A DNA stretch of 64,000 nucleotides, taken from positions 124,001 through 188,000 of the forward strand of contig BROI01000022.1 in the NCBI GenBank assembly GCA_027923505.1, given 5' to 3'. This DNA is from Mayamaea pseudoterrestris. Taxonomy: Eukaryota > Bacillariophyta > Bacillariophyceae > Sellaphorales > Sellaphoraceae. The notes beneath the pieces were generated by a model. That model ran no database searches. It saw nothing but the letters and a program-made list of their open reading frames with translations, and was not told the origin of the DNA. The translations under genes and the position numbers were made by a program. Each line of letters begins with the position of its first letter. Within the stretch, counting starts at the first letter, position 1. Of this stretch, positions 7,303 through 46,654 are shown one piece after another.

Positions 7303-7382
<80 letters not shown>

Positions 7383-21216: not shown

Positions 21217-21278
21217 GCAGGATTAGCTCAGTGGAAGAGCGAAACGTTTACACCGTTTAGGTCGGGAGTTCGAACCTC
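21217..21278 (+). pseudogene. tRNA-Val(UAC) pseudogene, 3' end missing
   Basis: Matches the intact copy at 24154 through the acceptor 5' strand, D arm, anticodon arm (UAC) and TTCGAAC loop. A 12-nt deletion relative to copy 2 removes the end of the T stem and the 3' acceptor strand, so the cloverleaf cannot close. A and B box promoter sequences survive, so it might still bind TFIIIC. Confidence 0.85.
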
Positions 21279-21461
21279 ATTGTTTTCAACCGCAGTGTGG
21301 ATACATTCATGTTTGTGGTTGACCAGCACCGCGAAGAAGAAGAACTTGTACTGACGGCCCTCTAGTCCATTGCAGGTGCTCGTTGGCATGATGGGCCATT
21401 GGTTTGCACCGTGAATGCAGTGAGCCCTTCACAAGGATGCCATCAACAAATGACAGGGATT

Positions 21462-22140
21462 TACATGAAGGTGCTCATTTGATGCTTTGATGACTGCATG
21501 CCCTCAACTGGCCAAATTTCCTTTTGTCACTGAGCTACTTGGATGCCATGGAGGGGTTTCACCACACCAGATGAACATATGAGACAAGGGTTTGGCCATG
21601 CAGGTGCTCATAGGATGCTCCATTGGTGCACCAGTGGCCCCTTCTAGGCAGATGACCTTTCCACTGGCGCACAGATGGTTTTCCTTCTCACTGTCACTGA
21701 GCTACTTGGATGCCATGGAGGGGTTTCACCACACCAAATGAACATACAGAACAAGGGTTTGGCCATGCAGGTGCTCATAGGATGCTCCATTGGTGCAACA
21801 GTGGCGCCTTCTAGGCAGATGGCTCTTCAAGAGGCGCTCAGAAGGGTTTTCTTCTCACTGTCACTGAGCTACTTGGATGCCATGGAGGGGTTTTACCACA
21901 CCAAATGAACATACAGGACAAGGGTTTGGCCATGCAGGTGCTCATAGGATGCTCCATTGGTGCACCAGTGGCACCTTCTAGGCAGATGGCCCTTCAATGG
22001 CCTCGTTTCCTTCTCACCGTCACTGAGCTACTTGGATGCCATGACGGGGTTTCACCACACCAAATGAACATATAGGGCAAGTTTGGCCATGTGCTGCTCA
22101 TTGCCATTGGTGCACCAGGCACCTTCTAGGCGCCATTTGG
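21462..22140 (+). repeat. 168-bp satellite, short array A (degenerate)
   Basis: About four units of the same 168-bp satellite that forms the long array at 24766-46320, in the same orientation. Units are recognised by GCTACTTGGATGCCATGG, TTTGGCCATGCAGG and TGGTGCACCA. The first and last units are strongly eroded. Fragmentary similarity (GCAGGTGCTCGTTGG) can be seen from about 21,370, next to the tRNA remnant. Confidence 0.93.
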
Positions 22141-22481
22141 GCAATGAGTCTCAAGACAGTGTTAATCTTGTAACTTGTAAATCAAATCGTTGCACCTTTC
22201 GCTTGTAGCTGTCCTTGGATGGCCAATCCAAGCTTGCAGTTGCTACAATACGAGAGACGAATAAATCGCTTTCTTAACTCTTCAAGCTTAGTAAGTCTGC
22301 TTGTTTCTACTCTTTATCGCACTAGTTTCAGCAATATGCTTGTTGAATCGCTTCGAAGCCGTCGCTGCCACGCATCACGCGATCGTGAGGCTGTGGTGAG
22401 CCGCGAGTGCCGCTGTGTCACCCTATCGGACATTCGGTGTGACTTGCCCGATTTTCGCTGTTTTCGTTCGCATCCTGCAAA
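22141..22481. other. Unique spacer between array A and the second duplicated segment
   Basis: About 340 bp with no satellite similarity. The part at 22160-22333 starts TGTTAAT, ends TTTCAGCA and has an AATAAA-like stretch, which resembles a short solo LTR; no flanking target duplication is seen, so this is weak. The remaining 150 bp supply the novel C-terminal codons of the truncated ATPase copy. Confidence 0.35.
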
Positions 22482-23835
22482 GCGGAACGTTTACCATTAC
22501 TTTCTCAACGCCTGGCATAGGCTCTAGAACCCGCCTGATCATTGGTACTTCGGACGAGCAGCAAATCTTGTCGCATGACAAAATGGATCGCGCCAGTGGC
22601 AATGTCGCAGTTGCCAATGGCGGCTCAATCGTTGGGACCGAAACATGAGCTGGCTTGGCAGCCTTGACCGGAGTCGTAGTCGCTGCCGTCGCCGTTTTGA
22701 GTATGTTTTCAACCGTCGCAACGCGACCACTCGTCTTGGTGTCAAACAAGTTGGGCAAATGATCAAGGATGCTGAATGGCGTTGGCGAAACTTCGAAAAA
22801 GTGCAACTGCACGTGTTTGAAGCTACTGCTGCTGCTGCCTCGCCTCTTGTTGCGCCACTTGCGTTGACCAACGTTTTGAAAGCGGCCGTGAACGTCATCG
22901 GAGCCGCAATCAGCGCAGGCATGCTCCAAGTGCAACTCTCCAGTATCCGCATTATGCACCAAGTAATCCTCGTGATCATCGTGGCGCACCTTGTGTAAAA
23001 TCCGGCGAGCCTTGGAATTCTTATAATCCTTGTATGCTGCTGTTGCCGACGAGCACGTACTATCGTGCTGATGAGTCTTGCGACATTTGGCAGCATTGAA
23101 TCGCTTTTGAATCTCCTGGCTGTTGCAAGCCTTTGGCAGACTATCCGAGACTGGAAGGACGAGTAGATTGCAAGCAGCAGCGTCATCTTCGTCAGTGTCA
23201 GTCGTTCCAGTCGGAATCAAGTATAGCGTCTGCGATGCCAACAATTGTTCCAATCCATAGCCATCCTTACTACTACTGCTAGTTGTTGTAGTCATTGCTG
23301 TATCACGCTCCTGTTGCTGCTGATGCGCCGCCAAGCACATGTTTCGTAAATGCGCGTGGACATGCGGCGTATCAACGCCACAGAAGCAAGACTCTGCAGG
23401 CGTTCCATGGTTTCCATGCTCATCAAAGCAAGGAGTCATCCAGTCATCGATTGCTGTAGCTCCATGCGTGCTAAAGCAGAGTTTCTGCTGCTGCAATACT
23501 TGAGAGTCCTTGTCGTCGCTCGTTCCATTAGCAGCTGTACTTGAAGCCTCATTCTTTTGGTAACGAAAAGTCATGGGGACGCCCGATGCATCGAAAATGA
23601 CAACGTCCGTTCCATTCTCGCGGACAACGGCGAGACAAAGGACCGAGTTGCTTTCCTCTTCCTCTGCATGATGGTGATGATGATGCGTATGAGAGTGATG
23701 ATGCTCGGAAGATCGAGTCGTCAGCGTCGGCTCCGAGTCGATTGTTCCTGCGCTTTCGCTTCCGCCGCAGCAGCCACTGCGTTTCTCTTGCAATGGCGAG
23801 GCTCCATGATGATGGGAATGACTATGGCCTGGCAT
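22423..23835 (-). pseudogene. Truncated duplicate of the P1B-ATPase N-terminal region (470-codon ORF)
   Basis: Starts at ATG 23835 (same MPGHSHSHHHG start as the full gene) and tracks the ATPase N-terminus with scattered substitutions until within HMA domain 1 (VMVNVPL). There homology stops at about 22482 and 18 unrelated codons precede a stop. It therefore lacks most of HMA1, HMA2, the degenerate HMA and the whole membrane pump. The frame is intact across the 450 shared residues, including the Cys and His clusters, so a soluble metal-binding product is conceivable. I favour a recent partial duplication rather than a functional gene, but an open frame of this length deserves transcript evidence. 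Confidence 0.75.
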
Positions 23836-24153
23836 GCTTGCAGGTATAAAAAGTCACTGCTGATTGTTGAGACGTGAAAGTTGCAGCCTCGTCACAACTT
23901 ATTTCCCTGCTTTCGTCCCGAATTCGTTCCACTACTCAGCTATGAATGAACGGCAAAGGATTGCAAAGCGCTTCTTTAACTTAGATAATACTGAAAAGCT
24001 TCTCTTCTTGAAAGTCTGCTGCCTTTTAAAGTGATCTTGTCGAGGCAAGCCAACCTCAACCACTTGGCATGCGCTGCGAGGTCTGCAGGCGCCGCGACAC
24101 CCCATCTCGCAGGCAAGTTAATGCAATTAGGTCCCTTTTCAACATGGTTTATC
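23836..24153. promoter_or_regulatory. Duplicated divergent region between truncated ATPase copy and tRNA-Val
   Basis: 318 bp, the copy of 20,894-21,216, with small differences. Just upstream of the ATG this copy reads TTTTTATACCTGCAAGC where copy 1 reads TTTTTTAAGAATTGCAAGC. Confidence 0.4.
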
Positions 24154-24225
24154 GCAGGATTAGCTCAGTGGAAGAGCGAAACGTTTACACCGTTTAGGTC
24201 GGGAGTTCGAACCTCTCATCCTGTA
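24154..24225 (+). tRNA. tRNA-Val (anticodon UAC)
   Basis: 72-nt cloverleaf: acceptor GCAGGAT pairs with ATCCTGT (one G-T), D arm GCTC-AGTGGAA-GAGC, anticodon arm AAACG-TTTACAC-CGTTT with anticodon TAC (reads GUA, Val), 5-nt variable loop, T arm GGGAG-TTCGAAC-CTCTC and discriminator A. Internal A box (TAGCTCAGTGG) and B box (GTTCGAACC) are present. No intron; CCA is not encoded, as expected in a nuclear gene. It stands between the truncated ATPase copy and the long satellite array. Confidence 0.92.
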
Positions 24226-24765
24226 TCATTGTTTTACAACCGCAGATGGATACATTCATTTTGTTTGTTTGGAAGAACCGAGCACTCGCAGCAAGAAGAA
24301 GAACTTGTCTACTGACCCCTCTAGTCCATTTCAATTCTTGTTTGTTGGCATGATGGGCCAATGTTGCTTTATATAGTTGCACTACAGTGTCCATCACCAT
24401 GTATGCCATGGTGAGACTGAGCACATTCAACAACTGGTTGGATCTGCTAGCAATGCACCTCAAGTGGCAAGTGAGACTTCCAAAATGGCCTACAGAACCC
24501 ATAATACAACAGACATGGACTTTAACATTGAATGGGACTCATAGACGTGTCAATGTGGGTGTGGAACCCATGACTATGCCCTGCAACTCCGCACACAAAT
24601 GGTTGAATGTACCAGCATTGCAGCCTTTTTTGTGGCAGGGATCATCAGCATTGCCAGCTGAGCCCTCCAATTGCTTTCAATTCATGCTTCCTGTCATGAA
24701 AGGCCAAACATTGGTCAGTAGCACCTCAGTATCCACCACCATATGTGCCATGGTGAGACTCAGCA
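24226..24765. other. Transition from tRNA to the satellite array
   Basis: 540 bp. The first ~137 bp are shared with copy 1 of the duplication. The rest contains a ~38-bp degenerate direct repeat (CCATGGTGAGACT core) at about 24386 and 24727, spaced near two satellite periods (~341 bp). This hints at very old, eroded satellite units or a different repeat. No gene is seen. Confidence 0.45.
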
Positions 24766-27700
24766 GAAGGGTTTGACCATGCAGGTGCTCAATGGATGCT
24801 CCATTGGTGCACCAGTGGCGCCTTCTAATCAGATGACCCTATAAGTGGCGCTCAGAAGGATTTTCCTTCTCGCCATCACTGAGCTACTTGGATGCCATGG
24901 AAGGGTTTCACCATGCCAAATGAACATACGGGACAAGGGTTTGGCCATGCAGGTGCTCATTAGATGCTCCATTGGTGCACCAGTGGTGCCTTCTAAACAG
25001 ATGAGCCTTCAAATGGCGCTCAGAAGGATTTTCCTTCTCGCCATCAATGAGCTACTTGGATGCCATGGAGGGGTTTCACCACACCAAATGAATATATGGG
25101 ACAAGGGTTTAGCCATGCAGGTGCTCATTAGATGCTCATTGGTGCACCAGTGGCGCCATCTAAACAGATGCCCCAACAACTAGCGCTCAGAAGGATTTTC
25201 CTTTTCGCCGTCACTGAGCTACTTGGATGCCATGGAGGGGTTTCACCACACCAAATGAACATACGGGACAATGGTTTGGCCATGCAGGTGCTCATTGGAT
25301 GCTCCATTGGTGCACCAGTGGCGCCTTCTAAACAGATGAGCCTTCAAGTGGCGCTCAGAAGGATTTTCCTTCTCGCCATCACTGAGCTACTTGGATGCCA
25401 TGGAGGGGTTTCACCACACCAAATGAACATACGGGACAATGGTTTGGCCATGCAGGTGCTCATTGGATGCTCCATTGGTGCACCAGTGGCGCCTTCTAGG
25501 CAGATGCCCCAACAAGTGGCGCTCAGAAGGATTTTCCTTCTCGCCATCACTGAGCTACTTGGATGCCATGGAGGGGTTTCACCACACCAAATGAACATAC
25601 GGGACAAGGGTTTGGCCATGCAGGTGCTCATTGGATGCTCCATTGGTGCCCCAGTGGTGCCTTCTAGGCAGATGAGCCTTCAAGTGGTGCTCAGAAGGAT
25701 TTTCCTTCTCGCCGTCATTGAGCTACTTGGATGACATGGAGGGGTTTCACCACACCAAATGAACATGCGGGACAAGGGTTTGGCCATGCAGGTGCTCATT
25801 GGATGCTCCATTGGTGCACCAGTGGCGCCTTCTAGGCAGATGACCCTTCAAGTGGCGCTCAGAAGGATTTTCCTTCTCGCCGTCACTGAGCTACTTGGAT
25901 GCCATGGAGGGGTTTCACCACACCAAATGAACATATGGGACAAGGGTTTGGCCATGCAGGTGCTCATTGGATGCTCCATTGGTGCACCAGTGGCGCCTTC
26001 TAAACAGATGAGCCTTCAAGTGGCGCTCAGAAGGATTTTCCTTCTCGCCATCACTGAGCTACTTGGATGCCATGGAGGGGTTTCACCACACCAAATGAAC
26101 ATACAGGACAAGGGTTTGGCCATGCAGGTGCTCATAGGATGCTCCATTGGTGCACCAGTGGCGCCTTCTAGGCAGATGGCCCTTCAACTGGCGCTCAGAA
26201 GGATTTTCCTTCTCGCCGTCACTGAGCTACTTGGATGCCACCCAAATAAAAGAAAGGTTTGGCAGTGGATGCTCCATTGGGCACAGGTTCGGCGCTCACC
26301 GCCACTGGAGGGTTTTCACCACACCAAATGAACATACGGGACAAGGGTTTGGCCATGCAGGTGCTCATTGGATGCTCCATTGGTGCACCAGTGGCGCCTT
26401 CTAGGCAGATGGCCCTTCAACTGGCGCTCAGAAGGATTTTCCTTCTCGCCGTCACTGAGCTACTTGGATGCCATGGAGGGGTTTCACCACACCAAATGAA
26501 CATACGGGACAAGGGTTTGGCCATGCAGGTGCTCATTGGATGCTCCATTGGTGCACCAGTGGCGCCGTCTAGGCAGATGACCCTTCAAGTGGCGCTCAGA
26601 AGGATTTTCCTTCTCGCCGTCACTGAGCTACTTGGATGCCATGGAGGGGTTTCACCATGCCAAATGAACATACGGGACAAGGGTTTGGCCATGCAGGTGC
26701 TCATTGGATGCTCCATTGGTGCACCAGTGGCACCTTCTAGGCAGATGGCCCTTCAACTGGCGCTCAGAAGGTTTTTCCTTCTCGCCGTCACTGAGCTACT
26801 TGGATGCCATGGAGGGGTTTCACCACACCAAATGAACATACGGGACAAGGGTTTGGCCATGCAGGTGCTCATTGGATGCTCCATTGGTGCACCAGTGGCG
26901 CCTTCTAGGCAGATGCCCCTTCAACTGGCGCTCAGAAGGATTTTCCTTCTCGCCGTCACTGAGCTACTTGGATGCCATGGAGGGGTTTCACCACGCCAAA
27001 TGAACATACGGGACAAGGGTTTGGCCATGCAGGTGCTCATTGGATGCTCCATTGGTGCACCAGTGGCGCCTTCTAGGCAGATGGCCTTCAACTGGTGCTC
27101 AGAAGGATTTTCCTTCTCGCCGTCACTGAGCTACTTGGATGCCATGGAGGGGTTTCACCATGCCAAATGAACATACGGGACAAGGGTTTGGCCATGCAGG
27201 TGCTCATTGGATGCTCCATTGGTGCACCAGTGGCGCCTTCTAAACAGATGAGCCTTCAAGTGGCGCTCAGAAGGATTTTCCTTCTCGCCGTCACTGAGCT
27301 ACTTGGATGCCATGGAGGGGTTTCACCACACCAAATGAACATACGGGACAAGGGTTTGGCCATGCAGGTGCTCATTGGATGCTCCATTGGTGCACCAGTG
27401 GCGCCTTCTAGGCAGATGGCCCTTCAACTGGCGCTCAGAAGGTTTTTCCTTCTCGCCGTCACTGAGCTACTTGGATGCCATGGAGGGGTTTCACCACACC
27501 AAATGAACATACGGGACAAGGGTTTGGACATGCAGGTGCTCATTGGATGCTCCATTGGTGCACCAGTGGCGCCTTCTAGGCAGATGCCCCTTCAACTGGC
27601 GCTCAGAAGGTTTTTCCTTCTCGCCGTCACTGAGCTACTTGGATGCCATGGAGGGGTTTCACCACACCAAATGAACATACGGGACAAGGGTTTGGCCATG

Positions 27701-30700
27701 CAGGTGCTCATTGGATGCTCCATTGGTGCACCAGTGGCGCCTTCTAGGCAGATGCCCCTTCAAGTGGCGCTCAGAAGGATTTTCCTTCTCGCCATCACTG
27801 AGCTACTTGGATGCCATGGAAGGGTTTCACAATGCCAAATGAACATACGGGATAATGGTTTGGCCATGCAGGTGCTCATTGGATGCCCCTTTGGGGCACC
27901 AGTGGCGCCTGCTAGACAGATGACCCAACAAGTAGCGCTCAGAAGGATTTTCCTTCTCGCCGTCACTGAGCTACTTGGATGCCATGGAGGGGTTTCACCA
28001 CACCAAATGAACATACGGGACAAGGGTTTGGCCATGCAGGTGCTCATTGGATGCTCCATTGGTGCACCAGTGGCGCCTTCTAGGCAGATGGCCCTTCAAG
28101 TGGCGCTCAGAAGGATTTTCCTTCTCGCCATCACTGAGCTACTTGGATGCCATGGAGGGGTTTCACCACACCAAATGAACATACGGGACAAGGGTTTGGC
28201 CATGCAGGTGCTCATTGGATGCTCCATTGGTGCACCAGTGGCGCCTTCTAGGCAGATGCCCCTTCAACTGGCGCTCAGAAGGATTTTCCTTCTCGCCGTC
28301 ACTGAGCTACTTGGATGCCATGGAGGGGTTTCACCACACCAAATGAACATATGGGACAATGGTTTGGCCATGCAGATGCTCATTGGATGCTCCATTGGTG
28401 CACCAGTGGCGCCTTCTAGGCAGATGCCCCTTCAACTGGCGCTCAGAAGGATTTTCCTTCTCGCCGTCACTGAGCTACTTGGATGCCATGGAGGGGTTTC
28501 ACCACGCCAAATGAACATACGGGACAAGGGTTTGGCCATGCAGGTGCTCATTGGATGCTCCATTGGTGCACCAGTGGCGCCTTCTAGGCAGATGGCCCTT
28601 CAACTGGCGCTCAGAAGGATTTTCCTTCTCGCCGTCACTGAGCTACTTGGATGCCATGGAGGGGTTTCACCACGCCAAATGAACATACGGGACAAGGGTT
28701 TGGCCATGCAGATGCTCATTGGATGCTCCATTGGTGCACCAGTGGCGCCTTCTAGGCAGATGCCTCTTCAACTGGCGCTCAGAAGGTATTTCCTTCTCGC
28801 CGTCACTGAGCTACTTGGATGCCATGGAGGGGTTTCACCACACCAAATGAACATACGGGACAAGGGTTTGGCCATGCAGGTGCTCATTGGATGCTCCATT
28901 GGTGCACCAGTGGCGCCTTCTAGGCAGATGCCCCTTCAAGTGGCGCTCAGAAGGTTTTTCCTTCTCGCCGTCACTGAGCTACTTGGATGCCATGGAGGGG
29001 TTTCACCACACCAAATGAACATATGCGACAAGGGTTTGGCCATGCAAGTGCTCAAAGGATGGTCCACTGGTGCTTCAGTGGCACCTTCTAGGCAGATGCC
29101 CCTACAAGTGGCGCTCAGAAGAATTTTTCCTTCTCGCCGTCACTGAGCTATTTGGATGCAATGGAGGAGTATGGAGGGGTTTCACCACACCAAATGAACA
29201 TATGGGACAAGGGTTTGGCCATGCAGGTGCTCATTGGATGCTCCATTGGTGCACCAGTGGCGCCTTCTAGGCAGATGGCCCTTCAACTGGCGCTCAGAAG
29301 GATTTTCCTTCTCGCCGTCACTGAGCTACTTGGATGCCATGGAGGGGTTTCACCACACCAAATGAACATACGGGACAAGGGTTTGGCCATGCAGGTGCTC
29401 ATTGGATGCTCCATTGGTGCACCAGTGGCGCCTTCTAGGCAGATGACGCTTCATGACGCGTTCAGAAGGTTTTTCCTTCTCGCCGTCACTGAGCTACTTG
29501 GATGCCATGGAGGGGTTTCACCACACCAAATGAACATACGGGACAAGGGTTTGGCCATGCAGGTGCTCATAGGATGCTCCATTGGTGCACCAGTGGCGTC
29601 TTCTAGGCAGATGGCCCTTCAACTGGCGCTCAGAAGAATTTTTCCTTCTCGCCGTCACTGAGCTACTTGGATGCCATGGAAGGGGTTCACCACACCAAAT
29701 AAACATATGGGACAAGGGTTTCGCCATGCAGGTGCTCATTGAATGCTCCATTGGTGCACCAGTGACACCTTCTAGGCAGATGGCCCTTCAACTGGCGCTC
29801 ACACCGGCGCACCAGAAGGATTTCCATGCAGTCTCATGATCTCCATGGTCACCGTGGCGCCTTCAGGCAGATGCCCTTACTGGCGCCAGAAGGATTTTCC
29901 TTCTCGCCGCACTGAGCTACGGGATGCCACAGGTTTCCACCACCATATGAACATACGGGACAAGGGTTTGGCCATGCAGGTGCTCATTGGATGCTCCATT
30001 GGTGCACCAGTGGCGCCTTCTAGGCAGATGCCCCTTCAACTGGCGCTCAGAAGGATTTTCCTTCTCGCCGTCACTGAGCTACTTGGATGCCATGGAGGGG
30101 TTTCACCACACCAAATGAACATACGGGACAAGGGTTTGGCCATGCAGGTGCTCATTGGATGCTCCATTGGTGCACCAGTGGCGCCTTCTAGGCAGATGGC
30201 CCTTCAACTGGCGCTCAGAAGGATTTTCCTTCTCGCCGTCACTGAGCTACTTGGATGCCATGGAGGGGTTTCACCACACCAAATGAACATAAGGGACAAG
30301 GGTTTGGCCATGCAGGTGCTCATTGGATGCTCCATTGGTGCACCAGTGGCGCCTTCCAAACAGATGAGCCTTCAAGTGGTGCTCAGAAGGATTTTCCTTC
30401 TCGCTGTCACTGAGCTACTTGGATGCCATGGAGGGGTTTCACCACGCCAAATGAACATACGGGACAAGGGTTTGGCCATGCAGATGCTCATTGGATGCTC
30501 CATTGGTGCACCAGTGGCGCCTTCTAGGCAGATGCCCCTTCAACTGGCGCTCAGAAGGATTTTCCTTCTCGCCGTCACTGAGCTACTTGGATGCCATGGA
30601 GGGGTTTCACCACACCAAATGAACATACGGGACAAGGGTTTGGCCATGCAGGTGCTCATTGGATGCTCCATTGGTGCACCAGTGGCGCCTTCTAGGCAGA

Positions 30701-33700
30701 TGGCCCTTCAACTGGCGCTCAGAAGGATTTTCCTTCTCGCCGTCACTGAGCTACTTGGATGCCATGGAGGGGTTTCACCACACCAAATGAACATACGGGA
30801 CAAGGGTTTGGCCATGCAGGTGCTCATTGGATGCTCCATTGGTGCACCAGTGGCGCCTTCTAGGCAGATGGCCCTTCAACTGGCGCTCAGAAGGATTTTC
30901 CTTCTCGCCATCACTGAGCTACTTGGATGCCATGGCGGGGTTTCACCACGCCAAATGAACATACGGGACAAGGGTTTGGCCATGCAGGTGCTCATTGGAT
31001 GCTCCATTGGTGCACCAGTGGCGCCTTCTAGGCAGATGCCCCTTCAACTGGCGCTCAGAAGGATTTTCCTTCTCGCCGTCACTGAGCTACTTGGATGCCA
31101 TGGAGGGGTTTCACCACGCCAAATGAACATACAGGACAAGGGTTTGGCCATGCAGGTGCTCATTGGATGCTCCATTGGTGCACCAGTGGCGCCTTCTAGG
31201 CAGATGGCCCTTCAACTGGCGCTCAGAAGGATTTTCCTTCTCGCCATCACTGAGCTACTTGGATGCCATGGAGGGGTTTCACCACACCAAATGAACATAC
31301 GGGACAAGGGTTTGGCCATGCAGGTGCTCATTGGATGCTCCATTGGTGCACCAGTGGCGCCTTCTAGGCAGATGGCCCTTCAACTGGCGCTCAGAAGGAT
31401 TTTCCTTCTCGCCATCACTGAGCTACTTGGATGCCATGGAGGGGTTTCACCACACCAAATGAACATACGGGACAAGGGTTTGGCCATGCAGGTGCTCATT
31501 GGATGCTCCATTGGTGCACCAGTGGCGCCTTCTAGGCAGATGCCCCTTCAACTGGCGCTCAGAAGGATTTTCCTTCTCGCCGTCACTGAGCTACTTGGAT
31601 GCCATGGAGGGGTTTCACCACACCAAATGAACATACAGGACAAGGGTTTGGCCATGCAGGTGCTCATTGGATGCTCCATTGGTGCACCAGTGGCGCCTTC
31701 TAGGCAGATGGCCCTTCAACTGGCGCTCAGAAGGTTTTTCCTTCTCGCCGTCACTGAGCTACTTGGATGCCATGGAGGGGTTTCACCACGCCAAATGAAC
31801 ATACGGGACAAGGGTTTGGCCATGCAGGTGCTCATTGGATGCTCCATTGGTGCACCAGTGGCGCCTTCTAGGCAGATGGCCCTTCAACTGGCGCTCAGAA
31901 GGATTTTCCTTCTCGCCGTCACTGAGCTACTTGGATGCCATGGAGGGGTTTCACCACACCAAATGAACATATGGGACAAGGGTTTGGCCATGCAGGTGCT
32001 CATTGGATGCTCCATTGGTGCACCAGTGGCGCCTTCTAGGCAGATGGCCCTTCAACTGGCGCTCAGAAGGTTTTTCCTTCTCGCCGTCACTGAGCTACTT
32101 GGATGCCATGGAGGGGTTTCACCACGCCAAATGAACATACGGGACAAGGGTTTGGCCATGCAGGTGCTCATTGGATGCTCCATTGGTGCACCAGTGGCGC
32201 CTTCTAGGCAGATGGCCCTTCAACTGGCGCTCAGAAGGATTTTCCTTCTCGCCGTCACTGAGCTACTTGGATGCCATGGCGGGGTTTCACCACGCCAAAT
32301 GAACATACGGGACAAGGGTTTGGCCATGCAGGTGCTCATTGGATGCTCCATTGGTGCACCAGTGGCGCCTTCTAGGCAGATGGCCCTTCAACTGGCGCTC
32401 AGAAGGATTTTCCTTCTCGCCGTCACTGAGCTACTTGGATGCCATGGAGGGGTTTCACCACGCCAAATGAACATACGGGACAAGGGTTTGGCCATGCAGG
32501 TGCTCATTGGATGCTCCATTGGTGCACCAGTGGCGCCTTCTAGGCAGATGCCCCTTCAACTGGCGCTCAGAAGGATTTTCCTTCTCGCCATCACTGAGCT
32601 ACTTGGATGCCACAGAGGGGTTTTACTACACCAAATGAACATACAGGACAAGGGTTTGGCCATGCAGGTGCTCATTGGATGCTCCATTGGTGCACCAGTG
32701 GCGCCTTCTAGGCAGATGGCCCTTCAACTGGTGCTCAGAAGGTTTTTCCTTCTCGCCGTCACTGAGCTACTTGGATGCCATGGAGGGGTTTCACCACACC
32801 AAATGAACATACGGGACAAGGGTTTGGCCATGCAGGTGCTCATTGGATGCTCCATTGGTGCACCAGTGGCGCTTTCTAGGCAGATGCCCCTTCAACTGGT
32901 GCTCAGAAGGTTTTTCCTTCTCGCCGTCACTGAGCTACTTGGATGCCATGGAGGGGTTTCACCACGCCAAATGAACATACAGGACAAGGGTTTGGCCATG
33001 CAGGTGCTCATTGGATGCTCCATTGGTGCACCAGTGGCGCCTTCTAGGCAGATGGCCCTTCAACTGGCGCTCAGAAGGTTTTTCCTTCTCGCCGTCACTG
33101 AGCTACTTGGATGCCATGGCGGGGTTTCACCACGCCAAATGAACATACGGGACAAGGGTTTGGCCATGCAGGTGCTCATTGGATGCTCCATTGGTGCACC
33201 AGTGGCGCCTTCTAGGCAGATGGCCCTTCAACTGGCGCTCAGAAGGTTTTTCCTTCTCGCCGTCACTGGGTTATTTGGATGCATTGGGGGGGTGTCACCA
33301 CGCCAAATGAACATACAGGACAAGGGTTTGGCCATGCAGGTGCTCATAGGATGCTCCATTGGTGCACCAGTGGCGCCTTCTAGGCAGATGGCCCTTCAAC
33401 TGGCGCTCAGAAGGATTTTCCTTCTCACCGTCACTGAGGTACTTGGATGCCATGGAGGGGTTTCACCACACCAAATGAACATATTGGACAAGGGTTTGGC
33501 CATGCAGGTGCTCATTGGATGCTCCATTGGTGCACCAGTGGCGCCTTCTAGGCAGATGGCCCCTCTACTGGCGCTCAGAAGGTTTTTCCTTCTCGCCGTC
33601 ACTGAGATACTTGGATGCCATGGCGGGATTTCACCACACCAAATGAACATACGGGACAAGGGTTTGGCCATGCAGGTGCTCATTGGATGCTCCATTGGTG

Positions 33701-36700
33701 CACCAGTGGCGCCTTCTAGGCAGATGGCCCTTTAAGTGGCGCTCAGAAGTATTTTCCTTCTCGCCTTCACTGAGATACTTGGATGCCATGAGGGGTCTCA
33801 CTACAGCCAAATGAACATATGGGACAAGGGTTTGGCCATGCAGGTGCTCATTTGATGCTCCACTGGTGCACCAGTGGCACCTTCTGGGCAGACGACCCTT
33901 CAACTGGCGATCAGAAGGTTGTTCCTTCTCGGCGTCACTGAGCTACTTGGATGCCATGGAGGGGTTTCACCACACCAAATGAACATACGGGACAAGGGTT
34001 TGGCCATGCAGGTGCTCATTGGATGCTCCATTGGTGCACCAGTGGCGCCTTCTAGGCAGATGGCCCTTCAACTGGCGCTCAGAAGGATTTTCCTTCTCGC
34101 CGTCACTGAGCTACTTGGATGCCATGGAGGGGTTTCACCACACCAAATGAACATACGGGACAAGGGTTTGGCCATGCAGGTGCTCATAGGATGCTCCATT
34201 GGTGCACCAGTGGCGCCTTCTAGGCAGATGGCCCTTCAACTGGCGCTCAGAAGGATTTTCCTTCTCGCCATCACTGAGCTACTTGGATGCCATGGAGGGG
34301 TTTCACCACGCCAAATGAACATATGGGACAAGGGTTTGGCCATGCAGGTGCTCATTGGATGCTCCATTGGTGCACCAGTGGCGCCTTCTAGGCAGATGGC
34401 CCTTCAACTGGCGCTCAGAAGGATTTTCCTTCTCGCCGTCACTGAGCTACTTGGATGCCATGGAGGGGTTTCACCACACCAAATGAACATACGGGACAAG
34501 GGTTTGGCCATGCAGGTGCTCATTGGATGCTCCATTGGTGCACCAGTGGCGCCTTCTAGGCAGATGGCCCTTCAACTGGCGCTCAGAAGGTTTTTCCTTC
34601 TCGCCGTCACTGAGCTACTTGGATGCCATGGAGGGGTTTCACCACACCAAATGAACATACGGGACAAGGGTTTGGCCATGCAGGTGCTCATTGGATGCTC
34701 CATTGGTGCACCAGTGGCGCCTTCTAGGCAGATGGCCCTTCAACTGGCGCTCAGAAGGTTTTTCCTTCTCGCCGTCACTGAGCTACTTGGATGCCATGGA
34801 GGGGTTTCACCACGCCAAATGAACATACGGGACAAGGGTTTGGCCATGCAGGTGCTCATTGGATGCTCCATTGGTGCACCAGTGGCGCCTTCTAGGCAGA
34901 TGGCCCTTCAACTGGCGCTCAGAAGGTTTTTCCTTCTCGCCGTCACTGAGCTACTTGGATGCCATGGAGGGGTTTCACCACACCAAATGAACATACAGGA
35001 CAAGGGTTTGGCCATGCAGGTGCTCATTGGATGCTCCATTGGTGCACCAGTGGCGCCTTCTAGGCAGATGGCCCTTCAACTGGCGCTCAGAAGGATTTTC
35101 CTTCTCGCCGTCACTGAGCTACTTGGATGCCATGGAGGGGTTTCACCACACCAAATGAACATACGGGACAAGGGTTTGGCCATGCAGGTGCTCATTGGAT
35201 GCTCCATTGGTGCACCAGTGGCGCCTTCTAGGCAGATGGCCCTTCAACTGGCGCTCAGAAGGATTTTCCTTCTCGCCGTCACTGAGCTACTTGGATGCCA
35301 TGGCGGGGTTTCACCACACCAAATGAACATACGGGACAAGGGTTTGGCCATGCAGGTGCTCATTGGATGCTCCATTGGTGCACCAGTGGCGCCTTCTAGG
35401 CAGATGGCCCTTCAACTGGCGCTCAGAAGGATTTTCCTTCTCGCCGTCACTGAGCTACTTGGATGCCATGGCGGGGTTTCACCACGCCAAATGAACATAT
35501 GGGACAAGGGTTTGGCCATGCAGGTGCTCATTGGATGCTCCATTGGTGCACCAGTGGCGCCTTCTAGGCAGATGGCCCTTCAACTGGCGCTCAGAAGGAT
35601 TTTCCTTCTCGCCGTCACTGAGCTACTTGGATGCCATGGCGGGGTTTCACCACACCAAATGAACATACGGGACAAGGGTTTGGCCATGCAGGTGCTCATT
35701 GGATGCTCCATTGGTGCACCAGTGGCGCCTTCTAGGCAGATGGCCCTTCAACTGGCGCTCAGAAGGTTTTTCCTTCTCGCCGTCACTGAGCTACTTGGAT
35801 GCCATGGAGGGGTTTCACCACGCCAAATGAACATACGGGACAAGGGTTTGGCCATGCAGGTGCTCATAGGATGCTCCATTGGTGCACCAGTGGCACCTTC
35901 TAGGCAGATGGCCCTTCAACTGGCGCTCAGAAGGTTTTTCCTTCTCGCCGTCACTGAGCTACTTGGATGCCATGGAGGGGTTTCACCACACCAAATGAAC
36001 ATATGGGACAAGGGTTTGGCCATGCAGGTGCTCATTGGATGCTCCATTGGTGCACCAGTGGCGCCTTCTAGGCAGATGGCCCTTCAACTGGCGCTCAGAA
36101 GGATTTTCCTTCTCGCCGTCACTGAGCTACTTGGATGCCATGGAGGGGTTTCACCACACCAAATGAACATATGGGACAAGGGTTTGGCCATGCAGGTGCT
36201 CATTGGATGCTCCATTGGTGCACCAGTGGCGCCTTCTAGGCAGATGGCCCTTCAAGTGGCGCTCAGAAGGTTTTTCCTTCTCGCCGTCACTGAGCTACTT
36301 GGATGCCATGGCGGGGTTTCACCACACCAAATGAACATACAGGACAAGGGTTTGGCCATGCAGGTGCTCATTGGATGCTCCATTGGTGCACCAGTGGCGC
36401 CTTCTAGGCAGATGGCCCTTCAACTGGCGCTCAGAAGGATTTTCCTTCTCGCCGTCACTGAGCTACTTGGATGCCATGGCGGGGTTTCACCACGCCAAAT
36501 GAACATACGGGACAAGGGTTTGGCCATGCAGGTGCTCATTGGATGCTCCATTGGTGCACCAGTGGCGCCTTCTAGGCAGATGGCCCTTCAACTGGCGCTC
36601 AGAAGGATTTTCCTTCTCGCCGTCACTGAGCTACTTGGATGCCATGGAGGGGTTTCACCACACCAAATGAACATACAGGACAAGGGTTTGGCCATGCAGG

Positions 36701-39700
36701 TGCTCATTGGATGCTCCATTGGTGCACCAGTGGCGCCTTCTAGGCAGATGGCCCTTCAACTGGCGCTCAGAAGGTTTTTCCTTCTCATCGTCACTGAGCT
36801 ACTTGGATGCCATGGCGGGGTTTCACCACACCAAATGACAATATGGGACAAGGGTTTGGCCATGCAGGTGCTCATTGCATGCTCCATTGGTGCACCAGTG
36901 GCGCCTTCTAGGCAGATGGTTCTTCAACTGGCGCTCAGAAGGTTTTTCCTTCTCGCCGTCACCGAGCTACTTGGATGCCATGGCGGGGTTTCACCACGCC
37001 AAATGAACGTATGGGACAAGGGTTTGGCCATGCAGGTGCTCATTGGATGCTCCATTGGTGCACCAGTGGCGCCTTCTAGGCAGATGGCCCTTCAACTGGC
37101 GCTCAGAAGGATTTTCCTTCTCGCCGTCACTGAGCTACTTGGATGCCATGGCGGGGTTTCACCACACCAAATGAACATACGGGACAAGGGTTTGGCCATG
37201 CAGGTGCTCATTGGATGCTCCATTGGTGCACCAGTGGCACCTTCTAGGCAGATGGCCCTTCAACTGGCGCTCAGAAGGTTTTTCCTTCTCGCCGTCACTG
37301 AGCTACTTGGATGCCATGGAGGGGGTTCACCACACCAAATGAACATACGGGACAAGGGTTTGGCCATGCAGGTGCTCATTGGATGCTCCATTGGTGCACC
37401 AGTGGCGCCTTCTAGGCAGATGGCCCTTCAACTGGCGCTCAGAAGGATTTTCCTTCTCGCCGTCACTGAGCTACTTGGATGCCATGGCGGGGTTTCACCA
37501 CGCCAAATGAACATACGGGACAAGGGTTTGGCCATGCAGGTGCTCATTGGATGCTCCATTGGTGCACCAGTGGCGCCTTCTAGGCAGATGGCCCTTCAAC
37601 TGGCGCTCAGAAGGTTTTTCCTTCTCGCCGTCACTGAGCTACTTGGATGCCATGGCAGGGGTTTCACCACGCCAAATGAACATACGGGACAAGGGTTTGG
37701 CCATGCAGGTGCTCATTGGATGCTCCATTGGTGCACCAGTGGCGCCTTCTAGGCAGATGGCCCTTCAACTGGCGCTCAGAAGGTTTTTCCTTCTCGCTGT
37801 CACTGAGCTACTTGGATGCCATGGCGGGTTTTCACCACACCAAATGAACATACGGGACAAGGGTTTGGCCATGCAGGTGCTCATTGGATGCTCCATTGGT
37901 GCACCAGTGGCGCCTTCTAGGCAGATGGCCCTTCAACTGGCGCTCAGAAGGTTTTTCCTTCTCGCCGTCACTGAGCTACTTGGATGCCATGGCGGGGTTT
38001 CACCACGCCAAATGAACATATGGGACAAGGGTTTGGCCATGCAGGTGCTCATTGGATGCTCCATTGGTGCACCAGTGGCGCCTTCTAGGCAGATGGCCCT
38101 TCAACTGGCGCTCAGAAGGTTTTTCCTTCTCGCCATCACTGAGCTACTTGGATGCCATGGAGGGGTTTCACCACGCCAAATGAACATATGGGACAAGGGT
38201 TTGGCCATGCAGGTGCTCATTGGATGCTCCATTGGTGCACCAGTGGCGCCTTCTAGGCAGATGGCCCTTCAACTGGCGCTCAGAAGGTTTTTCCTTCTCG
38301 TCGTCACTGAGCTACTTGGATGCCATGGCGGGGTTTCACCACACCAAATGAACATACGGGACAAGGGTTTGGCCATGCAGGTGCTCATTGGATGCTCCAT
38401 TGGTGCACCAGTGGCGCCTTCTAGGCAGATGGCCCTTCAACTGGCGCTCAGAAGGTTTTTCCTTCTCGTCGTCACTGAGCTACTTGGATGCCATGGCGGG
38501 GTTTCACCACACCAAATGAACATACGGGACAAGGGTTTGGCCATGCAGGTGCTCATTGGATGCTCCATTGGTGCACCAGTGGCGCCTTCTAGGCAGATGG
38601 CCCTTCAACTGGCGCTCAGAAGGAATTTCCTTCTCGCCGTCACTGAGCTACTTGGATGCCATGGCGGGGTTTCACCACGCCAAATGAACATACGGGACAA
38701 GGGTTTGGCCATGCAGGTGCTCATTGGATGCTCCATTGGTGCACCAGTGGCGCCTTCTAGGCAGATGGCCCTTCAACTGGCGCTCAGAAGGATTTTCCTT
38801 CTCGCCGTCACTGAGCTACTTGGATGCCATGGCGGGGTTTCACCACACCAAATGAACATACGGGACAAGGGTTTGGCCATGCAGGTGCTCATTGGATGCT
38901 CCATTGGTGCACCAGTGGCGCCTTCTAGGCAGATGGCCCTTCAACTGGCGCTCAGAAGGAATTTCCTTCTCGCCGTCACTGAGCTACTTGGATGCCATGG
39001 CGGGGTTTCACCACGCCAAATGAACATACGGGACAAGGGTTTGGCCATGCAGGTGCTCATTGGATGCTCCATTGGTGCACCAGTGGCGCCTTCTAGGCAG
39101 ATGGCCCTTCAACTGGCGCTCAGAAGGATTTTCCTTCTCGCCGTCACTGAGCTACTTGGATGCCATGGCGGGGTTTCACCACACCAAATGAACATACGGG
39201 ACAAGGGTTTGGCCATGCAGGTGCTCATTGGATGCTCCATTGGTGCACCAGTGGCGCCTTCTAGGCAGATGGCCCTTCAACTGGCGCTCAGAAGGTTTTT
39301 CCTTCTCGCCATCACTGAGCTACTTGGATGCCATGGAGGTGTTTCACCACGCCAAATGAACATACAGGACAAGGGTTTGGCCATGCAGGTGCTCATTGGA
39401 TGCTCCAATGGTGCACCAGTGGCGCCTTCTAGGCAGATGGCCCTTCAACTGGCGCTCAGAAGGAATTTCCTTCTCGCCGTCACTGAGCTACTTGGATGCC
39501 ATGGCGGGGTTTCACCACGCCAAATGAACATACGGGACAAGGGTTTGGCCATGCAGGTGCTCATTGGATGCTCCAATGGTGCACCAGTGGCGCCTTCTAG
39601 GCAGATGGCCCTTCAACTGGCGCTCAGAAGGATTTTCCTTCTCGCCGTCACTGAGCTACTTGGATGCCATGGCGGGGTTTCACCACACCAAATGAACATA

Positions 39701-42700
39701 TGGGACAAGGGTTTGGCCATGCAGGTGCTCATTGGATGCTCCATTGGTGCACCAGTGGCGCCTTCTAGGCAGATGGCCCTTCAACTGGCGCTCAGAAGGT
39801 TTTTCCTTCTCGCCGTCACTGAGCTACTTGGATGCCATGGCGGGGTTTCACCACACCAAATGAACATATGGGACAAGGGTTTGGCCATGCAGGTGCTCAT
39901 TGGATGCTCCATTGGTGCACCAGTGGCGCCTTCTAGGCAGATGGCCCTTCAACTGGCGCTCAGAAGGATTTTCCTTCTCGCCGTCACTGAGCTACTTGGA
40001 TGCCATGGCGGGGTTTCACCACGCCAAATGAACATACGGGACAAGGGTTTGGCCATGCAGGTGCTCATTGGATGCTCCATTGGTGCACCAGTGGCGCCTT
40101 CTAGGCAGATGGCCCTTCAACTGGCGCTCAGAAGGTTTTTCCTTCTCGCCGTCACTGAGCTACTTGGATGCCATGGCGGGGTTTCACCACGCCAAATGAA
40201 CATACGGGACAAGGGTTTGGCCATGCAGGTGCTCATTGGATGCTCCATTGGTGCACCAGTGGCGCCTTCTAGGCAGATGGCCCTTCAACTGGCGCTCAGA
40301 AGGTTTTTCCTTCTCGCCGTCACTGAGCTACTTGGATGCCATGGCGGGGTTTCACCACACCAAATGAACATATTGGACAAGGGTTTGGCCAAGCAGGTGC
40401 TCATTGAATGCTCCATTGGTGCACCATTGGCGCCTTCTAGGCAGATGGCCCTTCAACTGGCGCTCAGAAGGAATTTCCTTCTCGCCGTCACTGAGCTACT
40501 TGGATGCCATGGCGGGGTTTCACCACGCCAAATGAACATATTGGACAAGGGTTTGGCCATGCAGGTGCTCATTGGATGCTCCATTGGTGCACCAGTGGCG
40601 CCTTCTAGGCAGATGGCCCTTCAACTGGCGCTCAGAAGGATTTTCCTTCTCGCCGTCAGTGAGCTACTTGGATGCCATGGCGGGGTTTCACCACACCAAA
40701 TGAACATATGGGACAAGGGTTTGGCCATGCAGATGATCATAGGATGCTCCAATGGTGCACCAGTGGCGCCTTCGGCAGACCCTTCAACTGGCGCTCAGAA
40801 GGATTTTCCTTCTCGCTGTCACTGAGCTACTTGGATGCCATGGAGGGGTTTCACCACACCAAATGAACATATGGGACAAGGGTTTGGCCATGCAGGTGCT
40901 CATTGGATGCTCCAATGGTGCACCAGTGGCGCCTTCTAGGCAGATGGCCCTTCAACTGGCGCTCAGAAGGTTTTTCCTTCTCGCTGTCACTGAGCTACTT
41001 GGATGCCATGGCGGGGTTTCACCACACCAAATGAACATACAGGACAAGGGTTTGGCCATGCAGGTGCTCATTGGATGCTCCATTGGTGCACCATTGGCGC
41101 CTTCTAGGCAGATGGCCCTTCAACTGGCGCTCAGAAGGAATTTCCTTCTCGCCGTCACTGAGCTACTTGGATGCCATGGCGGGGTTTCACCACACCAAAT
41201 GAACATACAGGACAAGGGTTTGGCCATGCAGGTGCTCATTGGATGCTCCATTGGTGCACCAGTGGCGCCTTCTAGGCAGATGGCCCTTCAACTGGCGCTC
41301 AGAAGGATTTTCCTTCTCGCCGTCACTGAGCTACTTGGATGCCATGGAGGGGTTTCACCACACCAAATGAACATACGGGACAAGGGTTTGGCCATGCAGG
41401 TGCTCATTGGATGCTCCATTGGTGCACCAGTGGCGCCTTCTAGGCAGATGGCCCTTCAACTGGCGCTCAGAAGGATTTTCCTTCTCGCCGTCACTGAGCT
41501 ACTTGGATGCCATGGAGGGGTTTCACCACACCAAATGAACATACGGGACAAGGGTTTGGCCATGCAGGTGCTCATTGGATGCTCCATTGGTGCACCAGTG
41601 GCGCCTTCTAGGCAGATGCCCTTTCAACTGGCGCTCAGAAGGTTTTTCCTTCTCGCTGTCACTGAGCTACTTGGATGCCATGAGGGGTTTCACTACAGCC
41701 AAATGAACATATGGGACAAGGGTTTGGCCATGCAGGTGCTCATTTGATGCTCCACTGGTGCACCAGTGGCACCTTCTGGGCAGACGACCCTTCAACTGGC
41801 GATCAGAAGGTTGTTCCTTCTCGGCGTCACTGAGCTACTTGGATGCCATGGAGGGGTTTTGCCGCGCCATATGAACATATGGGACAAAGGTTTAGCCATG
41901 CAGGTGCTCATTGGATGCTCCATTGGTGCACCAGTGGCGCCTTCTAGGCAGATGCCCCTTCAACTGGCGCTCAGAAGGATTTTCCTTCTCGCCGTCACTG
42001 AGCTACTTGGATGCCATGGAGGGGTTTCACCACACCAAATGAACATACGGGACAAGGGTTTGGCCATGCAGGTGCTCATTGGATGCTCCATTGGTGCACC
42101 AGTGGCGCCTTCTAGGCAGATGACCCTTCAAGTGGCGCTCAGAAGGATTTTCCTTCTCGCCGTCACTGAGCTACTTGGATGCCATGGAGGGGTTTCACCA
42201 CACCAAATGAACATACGGGACAATGGTTTGGCCATGCAGGTGCTCATTGGATGCTCCATTGGTGCACCAGTGACGCCTTCTAGACAGATGACCCTTCAAC
42301 TAGCGCTCAGAAGGATTTTCCTTCTCGCCGTCACTGAGCTACTTGGATGCCATGGAGGGGTTTCACCACACCAAATGAACATACGGGACAAGGGTTTGGC
42401 CATGCAGGTGCTCATTGGATGCTCCATTGGTGCACCAGTGGCACCTTCTAGGCAGATGCCCCCACAACTGGTGCTCAGAAGGTATTTCCTTCTCGCCGTC
42501 ACTGAGCTACATGGATGCCATGGAGGGGTTTCACCACACCAAATGACAAGGACAAGGGGTTTGGCCATGCAGGTGCTCATTGGATGCTCCAATGGTGCAC
42601 CAGTGGCGCCTTCTAGGCAGATGGCCCTTCAACTGGCGCTCAGAAGGATTTTCCTTCTCGCCGTCACTGAGCTACTTGGATGCCATGGAGGGGTTTCACC

Positions 42701-45700
42701 ACACCAAATGAACATACGGGACAAGGGTTTGGCCATGCAGGTGCTCATTGGATGCTCCATTGGTGCACCAGTGGCGCCTTCTAGGCAGATGGCCCTTCAA
42801 CTGGCGCTCAGAAGGATTTTTCTTCTCGCTGTCACTGAGCTACTTGGATGCCATGGAGGGGTTTCACCACACCAAATGAACATACAGGACAAGGGTTTGG
42901 CCATGCAGGTGCTCGTTGGATGCTCCATTGGTGCACCAGTGGCGCCTTCTAGGCAGATGGCCCTTCAACTGGCGCTCAGAAGGATTTTCCTTCTCGCCGT
43001 CACTGAGCTACTTGGATGCCATGGAGGGGTTTCACCACACCAAATGAACATACAGGACAAGGGTTTGGCCATGCAGGTGCTCATTGGATGCTCCATTGGT
43101 GCACCAGTGGCGCCTTCTAGGCAGATGGCCCTTCAACTGGCGCTCAGAAGGATTTTCCTTCTCGCCGTCACTGAGCTACTTGGATGCCATGGCGGGGTTT
43201 TACCACACCAAATGAACATACAGGACAAGGGTTTGGCCATGCAGGTGCTCATTGGATGCTCCATTGGTGCACCAGTGACACCTTCTAGGCAGATGGCCCT
43301 TCAACTGGCGCTCAGAAGGATTTTCCTTCTCGCCATCACTGAGCTACTTGGATGCCATGGAGGGGTTTCACCACACCAAATGAACATACAGGACAAGGGT
43401 TTGGCCATGCAGGTGCTCATAGGATGCTCCATTGGTGCACCAGTGGCGCCATTTAGGCAGATGGCCCTTCAAGTGGCGCTCAGAAGGTTTTTCCTTCTCG
43501 CCATCACTGAGCTACTTGGATGCCATGGAGGGGTTTCACCACACCAAATGAACATACAGGACAAGGGTTTGGCCATGCAGGTGCTCGTTGGATGCTCCAT
43601 TGGTGCACCAGTGGCGCCTTCTAGGCAGATGGCCCTTCAAGTGGCGCTCAGAAGGATTTTCCTTCTCGCCGTCACTGAGCTACTTGGATGCCATGGAGGG
43701 GTTTCACCACACCAAATGAACATACAGGACAAGGGTTTGGCCATGCAGGTGCTCATAGGATGCTCCATTGGTGCACCAGTGGCGCCTTCTAGGCAGATGG
43801 CCCTTCAAGTGGCGCTCAGAAGGATTTTCCTTCTCGCCGTCACTGAGCTACTTGGATGCCATGGAGGGGTTTCACCACACCAAATGAACATATGGGACAA
43901 GGGTTTGGCCATGCAGGTGCTCATAGGATGCTCCATTGGTGCACCAGTGGCGCCTTCTAGGCAGATGGCCCTTCAACTGGCGCTCAGAAGGATTTTCCTT
44001 CTCGCCGTCACTGAGCTACTTGGATGCCATGGAGGGGTTTCACCACACCAAATGAACATACGGGACAAGGGTTTGGCCATGCAGGTGCTCATTGGATGCT
44101 CCATTGGTGCACCAGTGGCACCTTCTAGGCAGATGGCCCTTCAAGTGGCGCTCAGAAGGATTTTCCTTCTCGCCATCACTGAGCTACTTGGATGCCATGG
44201 AGGGGTTTCACCACACCAAATGAACATATGGGACAAGGGTTTGGCCATGCAGGTGCTCATAGGATGCTCCATTGGTGCACCAGTGGCGCCTTCTAGGCAG
44301 ATGGCCCTTCAAGTGGCGCTCAGAAGGTTTTTCCTTCTCGCCGTCACTGAGCTACTTGGATGCCATGGAGGGGTTTCACCACACCAAATGAACATACAGG
44401 ACAAGGGTTTGGCCATGCAGGTGCTCATAGGATGCTCCATTGGTGCACCAGTGGCACCTTCTAGGCAGATGGCCCTTCAACTGGCACTCAGAAGGATTTT
44501 CCTTCTCGCCATCACTGAGCTACTTGGATGCCATGGAGGGGTTTCACCACACCAAATGAACATACAGGACAAGGGTTTGGCCATGCAGGTGCTCGTTGGA
44601 TGCTCCATTGGTGCACCAGTGGCGCCTTCTAGGCAGATGGCCCTTCAAGAGGCGCTCAGAAGGATTTTCCTTCTCGCCGTCACTGAGCTACTTGGATGCC
44701 CCGGAGGGGTTTCACCACACCAAATGAACATACAGAACAAGGGTTTGGCCATGCAGGTGCTCACAGGATGCTCCATTGGTGCACCAGTGGCGCCATTTAG
44801 GCAGATGGCCCTTCAAGTGGCGCTCAGAAGGTTTTTCCTTCTCGCCGTCACTGAGCTACTTGGATGCCATGGAGGGGTTTCACCACACCAAATGAACATA
44901 TGGGACAAGGGTTTGGCCATGCAGGTGCTCATAGGATGCTCCATTGGTGCACCAGTGGCGCCATTTAGGCAGATGGCCCTTCAACTGGCGCTCAGAAGGA
45001 TTTTCCTTTTCGTTGTCACTGAGCTACTTGGATGCCATGGAGGGGTTTCACCACACCAAATGAATATATAGGACAAGGGTTTGGCCATGCAGGTGCTCAT
45101 AGGATGCTCCATTGGTGCACCAGTGGCGCCTTCTAGGCAGATGGCCCTTCAACTGGCGCTCAGAAGGATTTTCCTTCTCGCCGTCACTGAGCTACTTGGA
45201 TGCCATGGAGGGGTTTCACCACACCAAATGAACATACAGGACAAGGGTTTGGCCATGCAGGTGCTCATAGGATGCTCCATTGGTGCACCAGTGGCGCCAT
45301 TTAGGCAGATGGCCCTTCAAGTGGCACTCAGAAGGATTTTCCTTCTCGCCGTCACTGAGCTACTTGGATGCCATGGAGGGGTTTCACCACACCAAATGAA
45401 CATATGGGACAAGGGTTTGGCCATGCAGGTGCTCATAGGATGCTCCATTGGTGCACCAGTGGCGCCATTTAGGCAGATGGCCCTTCAAGTGGCGCTCAGA
45501 AGGTTTTTCCTTCTCGCCGTCACTGAGCTACTTGGATGCCATGGAGGGGTTTCACCACACCAAATGAACATACAGGACAAGGGTTTGGCCATGCAGGTGC
45601 TCATTGGATGCTCCATTGGTGCACCAGTGGCGCCTTCTAGGCAGATGGCCCTTCAAGAGGCGCTCAGAAGGAATTTCCTTCTCGCCGTCACTGAGCTACT

Positions 45701-46320
45701 TGGATGCCATGGAGGGGTTTCACCACACCAAATGAACATACAGAACAAGGGTTTGGCCATGCAGGTGCTCATAGGATGCTCCATTGGTGCACCAGTGGCG
45801 CCATTTAGGCAGATGGCCCTTCAAGTGGCGCTCAGAAGGATTTTCCTTCTCGCCGTCACTGAGCTACTTGGATGCCATGGAGGGATTTCCCCACACCTGA
45901 TGAATATATGAGACAAGGGTTTGGCCATGCAGGTGCTCATAGGATGCTCCATTGGTGCACCAGTGGCGCCATTTAGGCAGATGGCCCTTCAACTGGCGCT
46001 CAGAAGGATTTTCCTTCTGAGCTACTTAGATGCCATGGATGGGTTTCACCATGCTAAATGAACATACGGGATAAGGGTTTGGCCATGCAGGTGCTCATTA
46101 GATGCTCCATTGGTGCACCAGTGGCGCCTTCGAAACAGATGAGCCTTTAAATGGCGCTCAGAAGGATTTTCCTTCTCGCCGTCACTGAGCTACTTGGATG
46201 CCATGGAGGGGTTTCACCACACCAAATGATCATATGGGGCAAGGGTTTGGCCATGCAGGTGCTCATTGGATGCTCCATTGGTGCACCAGTGGCACCTTCT
46301 AGGCAGATGACCCTTCAAGT
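24766..46320 (+). repeat. 168-bp satellite DNA, long array B (~128 tandem units)
   Basis: Head-to-tail tandem array, period exactly 168 bp in most units (for example GGTTTGGCC at 25273 and 25441). Typical unit landmarks are GCTACTTGGATGCCATGG, TTTCACCACACCAAATGAAC, TTTGGCCATGCAGGTGCTCA, TTGGTGCACCAGTGGCGCC and CTCAGAAGGATTTTCCTTCT. The centre (about 30-41.6 kb) is highly homogeneous; both edges carry more variants. Disturbed units occur near 26,236-26,320, 29,800-29,950, 33,730-33,960, 40,770 and 41,680-41,880. One frame lacks stops (56 codons per unit), producing ORFs up to ~1,299 codons such as 29836-33735 and 33874-37752. Most variable sites change the amino acid and frames break at indels and stops, so I annotate it as satellite, not gene. 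Confidence 0.97.
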
Positions 46321-46654
46321 TTGTTAGTCCTTTGGTGGCAAGCTCAAGTCGTTCTGTGACAGCTTTTCTGGTGTACCTTTTTACCCACTCTATGAACTTC
46401 TGCATGGTCAAAACTTTGTTACATTTATGCTAATTCCAGAATCCGCTCACTGATGGGGGGAGGAAATTCTCTTCTGACAGTGAGTACAGACCGCACGTAA
46501 GCGGTATTAAAAAGTTCTGCCTACGACACTTGATTTTGTAACGACCGTCACGCAATCATTTTTTTCTTTGGGAGAGCAAGCAAAACACGGCATCATTCTG
46601 TAGCTGTCTATTTATAACAGTGCCTATTGACCTCAAGACGTGCATTTAGATATA
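46321..46654. other. Array right flank and SKI8-like gene promoter
   Basis: 334 bp of unique sequence after the last satellite unit stops abruptly within AGGCAGATGACCCTTCAAG. It must include the promoter of the WD40 gene. No tRNA or duplicated segment is seen on this side, unlike the left side. Confidence 0.5.

Follow-up and report, generated by a model that had tools for sequence, protein, structure and literature searches.

Does the long block of 168-bp repeats in this stretch of DNA mark a centromere, or is it a satellite array of a more ordinary kind? The analysis of the window (the whole stretch of DNA that was analysed, 64,000 nucleotides) favours the second answer: the block is probably, at a probability of about 0.6, an intercalary satellite array which has grown by unequal exchange and which is kept, or was long kept, CpG-methylated and silent.

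Extent and homogenisation of the array

The block is the following feature.

24767..46318, + strand: main satellite array of 168-bp units (Tandem Repeats Finder, blastn and unit decomposition)

Tandem Repeats Finder describes this region in three near-contiguous rows of period 168, with scores of 2556, 6213 and 30036. The length of 21,552 bases corresponds to 128.3 periods, in agreement with the approximately 128 head-to-tail units of 168 bp counted in an earlier note made from the letters of this DNA, whose array ends (24766 and 46320) are correct within 2 bases. When the array is aligned cyclically to the unit, 129 register units are counted; of these, 126 have at least 150 of the 168 positions. 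All 136 blastn rows obtained with the unit as query, for the main array and a second, short block together, are on the + strand. The units of the main array diverge on average by 2.5% from the consensus (535 substitutions in 21,471 aligned positions) and by 4.3% from each other in pairwise comparisons. The GC content of the array is 54.1%, versus 49.6% and 49.2% for the left and right flanks, respectively. The array is broken at 26241-26300 by ~60 bp of degraded satellite, and further irregular units are found near 29030 and 29800.

The number of mismatches drops with the distance from the array edge (rho -0.33), the edge units being more divergent, and units 54-55 and 101-102, which are 47 units (7.9 kb) apart, have in common a compound indel and seven rare variants. 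This edge gradient and this common haplotype display the homogenisation by exchange that is expected of a satellite. In the core, units that lie closer together differ slightly less (rho 0.08, permutation P 0.022), which is a weak signal, and no higher-order period is seen among core units 32-101, for which lags 1-24 all lie above the 5% permutation minimum. Growth by unequal exchange with conversion fits the array, as we infer from its variants; these processes would both enlarge and homogenise it. The unusually divergent units at 33826-33993 and 41718-41885 have ten variants in common, of which seven are rare among the units; this would suit copying of one from the other, or from a different array at another place. 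An assembly artefact, meaning a false join or a wrong copy number, is highly improbable when many units are individually distinct, the edges are graded and the length variants are scattered.

The period of 168 is a multiple of 3, and of the six consensus frames one is open, giving open reading frames of up to 1299 aa, as in an array coding for a protein of 56-residue repeats. Such a protein is hardly credible, however, because synonymous changes are not in excess (41 distinct changes versus 38.1 expected, P 0.28), stops are no rarer than expected (4 versus 4.7, P 0.47) and length changes not divisible by 3 repeatedly break the open frame. The longest array open reading frame has two Pfam matches, in which no single stretch passes alone. 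The earlier identification of the block as a satellite array is supported: it is a long head-to-tail array of a unit that is non-coding by these tests.

A second block and a segmental duplication

The window contains 48 open reading frames of at least 150 aa. Among the 20 given to Pfam are PGK, SpoU methylase, cyclin, P1B ATPase, WD40, TPR, ZZ and GH47 proteins, and these identified proteins in the flanks uphold the description of the surrounding DNA as gene-dense. A search with the PGK matched PGKs at large and singled out no lineage. The same description called the block isolated, which is wrong: this satellite forms another, shorter block 2.6 kb away from the main array, and both blocks come after the copies of a segmental duplication, which was detected by blastn of the window against itself with both satellite blocks masked. 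These are the two satellite loci in the window. The features near the blocks are listed here.

15824..20893, - strand: P1B-type heavy-metal ATPase gene with HMA, E1-E2 ATPase and hydrolase domains (domain search, inferred intron)
19548..21401, no strand assigned: left copy of the segmental duplication (blastn self-comparison)
21217..21288, + strand: broken tRNA-Val copy before the short block (Rfam, 38.0 bits; ARAGORN makes no call)
21367..21523, + strand: satellite-like but diverged lead-in to the short block (alignment score 65, versus at most 54 in 200 shuffles)
21526..22131, + strand: short block of the same satellite, ~3.8 units (Tandem Repeats Finder, blastn and unit alignment)
22423..23835, - strand: truncated ATPase duplicate, a 470-aa open frame carrying the ATPase's His/Cys-rich N-terminus (comparison with the full gene)
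22481..24363, no strand assigned: right copy of the segmental duplication, followed by the lead-in and the main array (blastn self-comparison)
24154..24225, + strand: intact tRNA-Val gene, anticodon TAC (ARAGORN; Rfam RF00005, 64.9 bits)
24305..24423, + strand: first of two copies of a ~120-bp direct repeat (self-comparison/alignment)
24364..24766, no strand assigned: 403-bp CpG-depleted lead-in from the duplicated segment to the main array
24651..24765, + strand: second copy of the ~120-bp direct repeat, stopping one base before the main array (self-comparison/alignment)
46328..46481, - strand: possible diverged inverted unit past the right array edge (alignment score 68)

The two copies of the duplication are 93.2% identical, and each includes a tRNA-Val gene together with the N-terminal part of the heavy-metal P1B ATPase gene and the region upstream of it. 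Both copies lead towards satellite: past the left copy come 3.8 units, and past the right copy comes the main array, preceded by the 403-bp lead-in. A stretch of 349 bp separates the short block from the right copy and shows no match to the satellite or to the sequence on the right of the main array. The possibility that the 403-bp lead-in is degenerate satellite finds no support, its alignment scores being close to the shuffle means (44 versus 43.5, and 48 versus 45.0 on the reverse strand). The copies of the direct repeat are 346 bp apart. For the possible inverted unit past the right edge, the score of 68 is above the maximum of 2000 shuffles (61), and the best of 452 ordinary flank windows scores barely lower (64).

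The left ATPase gene, with its start ATG at 20891-20893, looks complete when read through a single inferred GT-AG intron of 72 bp (18714-18785), which marks the source of this DNA as a eukaryote. When the truncated duplicate is compared with the full gene, 21 nonsynonymous and 43 synonymous changes are found in 447 codons. The resulting pN/pS of 0.14 suggests that the truncated frame is still in use, and its 470 aa may form an independent metal-binding protein under selection; conversion between the two copies could, however, produce a similar value. The broken tRNA-Val copy has a 12-bp deletion at its 3' end.

CpG depletion and CpG-specific transitions

The observed/expected ratio of CpG is 1.08 in the left flank, 1.13 in the right flank and 1.02 in each duplicated segment. 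In the main array it falls to 0.39 and in the short block to 0.145; the 403-bp lead-in, with 2 CpGs versus 21.8 expected, has a ratio of 0.09. As a baseline, 190 flank windows of 400 bp have a minimum of 0.45 and a 1st percentile of 0.71, and within the window the depletion is limited to both satellite blocks and the lead-in. This domain of CpG decay is a new observation of this analysis. The confinement of the signature to the block lends indirect support to the earlier description of the block as heterochromatin-like, by a test which that note did not propose.

The decay is also visible in the differences between the units of the main array. Transitions occur at 106 of the 1271 consensus-CpG positions (8.3%) versus 114 of the 10,491 other C/G positions (1.1%), which is an excess of 7.7 times (odds ratio 8.3), and transversions occur at 5 of the 1271 CpG positions. 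For units 56-101 the corresponding transition counts are 31/460 at CpG and 9/3769 elsewhere at C/G. Outside CpG, in the CA, CC and CT contexts of the array, C-to-T changes (both strands) are flat at 0.8-1.4%, and a general C-to-T process is therefore unlikely. Both TpG and CpA are found at four of the five consensus CpGs, only CpA being found at position 105, and site 148 (CA/CG/TG) resembles a sixth CpG of the unit. The most decayed sites are 148, with 24% CpG left, and 163, with 55%. In the short block the decay is stronger than in the main array, with a transition at 12 of the 34 consensus-CpG positions. Because variants are copied from unit to unit, the occurrences are not independent and a Fisher P calculated on the counts overstates their independence; when distinct sites are counted, 9 of 10 CpG sites and 42 of 82 other sites are affected (P 0.04).

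It is conceivable that the satellite is neutral and unmethylated, that its seed unit was CpG-poor by chance and that the changes at CpG reflect general mutability or the copying of variants. This would be in agreement with the recurrence of many variants through exchange, with the high frequency of some non-CpG variants (A94T in 41 units, A135C in 32) and with the CpG positions of the flanking duplication, which also differ more than the other positions. In the duplicated segment, used as a control, this excess concerns transitions (17/271 at CpG versus 37/1578 at other positions) and transversions (14/271 versus 40/1578) alike, so that what sets the satellite apart is the transition-specific part alone. 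The ratio of transitions to transversions at CpG positions is 17:14 in the duplication (2:5 in its non-coding part) versus 106:5 in the array. Considering also that both CpG products are present at four of the five sites, and that the lead-in is CpG-depleted though not detectably satellite, neutral evolution of an unmethylated repeat is an unlikely explanation; a low CpG content of the seed unit could nevertheless be the source of part of the depletion.

From the pattern of changes we infer that the CpG-specific decay is probably a record of CpG methylation, and such decay tells the past state of the repeat, not its present one. CpG scars are expected of long-term methylation, which makes an ordinary silenced satellite, and not a demonstrated centromere, the most likely identity of the block. 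A CpG methyltransferase would mark the repeat, the deamination of 5-methylcytosine would wear away its CpGs, and silent chromatin would lie over the block and end near the block edges. The array need not have any function for the cell, and the block is filed here as an ordinary satellite with what appears to be an unusually clear methylation fossil. If the methylation is true, this is a compact natural case of satellite silencing, sharply bordered and set in a gene-dense protist genome, and the assembled sequence alone records which repeats were methylated, in which case the test is applicable to other assemblies.

A phase of methylation in the nucleosome linker was also considered, as sites 148 and 163 would fit a 21-bp linker. 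It was dropped because 2 of the 15 pairs among the six sites fit by position alone and because site 105 of the short block is decayed in all three near-complete units.

Borders of the CpG-depleted domains and the tRNA-Val gene

At the left border of the main domain, CpG is at the level of the flank up to 24287, 62 bp beyond the intact tRNA-Val gene, and 2 CpGs are found in the next 479 bp. At the border of the short block, CpGs run to 21410, beyond the broken tRNA, and are then absent for 258 bp. At the right border of the main array, where no tRNA is found by ARAGORN, the CpG density is back within ~175 bp of the array end. The main array has an intact tRNA gene beside its left edge; no intact one is present at its right edge or at the short block. 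This provides a built-in comparison between a 128-unit array by an intact tRNA and a 4-unit stub by a broken tRNA.

It is possible to regard the tRNA-Val gene as a working barrier which confines the silent chromatin and shields the promoter of the truncated ATPase duplicate. A tRNA heterochromatin barrier that needs TFIIIC and Pol III is described for fission yeast in PMC2040200, and the situation at cen1 resembles the present one in that a repeat block is bordered by an intact tRNA gene. The position of the intact gene at 24154-24225, the change from flank-density CpG to 2 CpGs in 479 bp just beyond it, and the neighbouring 470-aa frame, which looks to be under selection, are consistent with such a role. 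In comparison with cen1, the arrangement here is known from sequence, and the borders without an intact tRNA are about equally sharp: the short block ends as sharply by the broken tRNA, and the right array edge has none. Since the decay also ends where the tRNA is broken or absent, a barrier role is possible but not needed, and the gene may be a mere passenger of the duplication. A barrier function thus seems rather unlikely. It is an addition to the explanation by a methylated satellite and compatible with it; the left edge of the silent chromatin would then perhaps be aided by the tRNA-Val gene, which is a weak step of the mechanism.

Comparison with centromeres and with other satellites

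Primate alpha satellite has a unit of ~171 bp. The array studied here is similar to it in unit length and in having tandem homogenised units, and differs from it in having no CENP-B-like box, by a pattern search of the window, and no higher-order period detected. If the array were a regional centromere, CENH3 nucleosomes would extend over the 21.6-kb array and the kinetochore would assemble there. The nucleosome-scale length of the unit, the long homogenised block with CpG decay and the modest tendency of the unit to fold as a single strand (z -2.24 for one strand and -1.88 for the other, with 5/200 and 9/200 shuffles folding as well) could be accommodated by such a structure. The earlier note had attached a nucleosomal meaning to the period. 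The unit length does fit, but the A/T-dinucleotide periodicity of the unit does not go beyond that of shuffles (P 0.12 at 10.5 bp, 0.41 at 11.2 bp and 0.85 at 9.9 bp), and rotational nucleosome phasing is therefore unsupported. Inside the unit, the longest invariant run is 7 bp (P 0.15), which does not point to a conserved protein-binding block.

The hint of a centromere in the same note finds no positive evidence: the array is GC-richer than its flanks, and a search of the window by pattern finds no CENP-B-like box. The ~3.8-unit stub in the adjacent duplication indicates a local origin of the satellite, and open frames start as close as ~320 bp to the array on its right and ~930 bp on its left. 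A centromere on this satellite is, all things considered, distinctly unlikely. The P. tricornutum centromere is short, simple and AT-rich, according to the summary of PMC7082073, and the array studied here, being GC-richer than its flanks, shows the opposite trend. With its GC content of 54.1% it is not a short, AT-rich, non-repetitive centromere of the P. tricornutum type; the lowest GC content of any 500 bp in the window (41.4%, at 6451) is found outside the array. The combination of all these properties in one protist satellite, namely a CpG-methylated block with a tRNA-Val barrier on the left that would also act as a regional centromere or pericentromere of high GC content, perhaps in a lineage, the diatoms, noted for short AT-rich centromeres, is very unlikely.

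The preferred reading, a methylated and silenced satellite, is closer to what is described in PMC9998398, where diatom genomes are found to have highly CG-methylated islands of transposable elements in otherwise unmethylated DNA. The likeness is the confinement of the CpG signature to a repeat island amid CpG-normal DNA. The islands in that study are transposable elements and repeats, satellites being unmentioned in its accessible text, and methylation is deduced here from mutations. PpSat1 and PpSat2 of the stramenopile Phytophthora parasitica (PMC7290008) are abundant satellite DNA families identified from a whole assembly; the present satellite is known from one window and is likened to them by description, not by sequence. 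Titles and abstract openings in the literature searched describe no 168-bp diatom satellite. Searches with exact patterns of the satellite, two in a viral and two in a prokaryote contig collection, gave 0 matches, which says little about eukaryote genomes, as these collections need not include this organism.

Two other repeats are present in the window. CAG triplets, with a perfect run of 25, are found at 7306-7381 within overlapping open reading frames of both strands, and a 42-bp unit occurs twice, in exact and adjacent copies, at 8875-8958.
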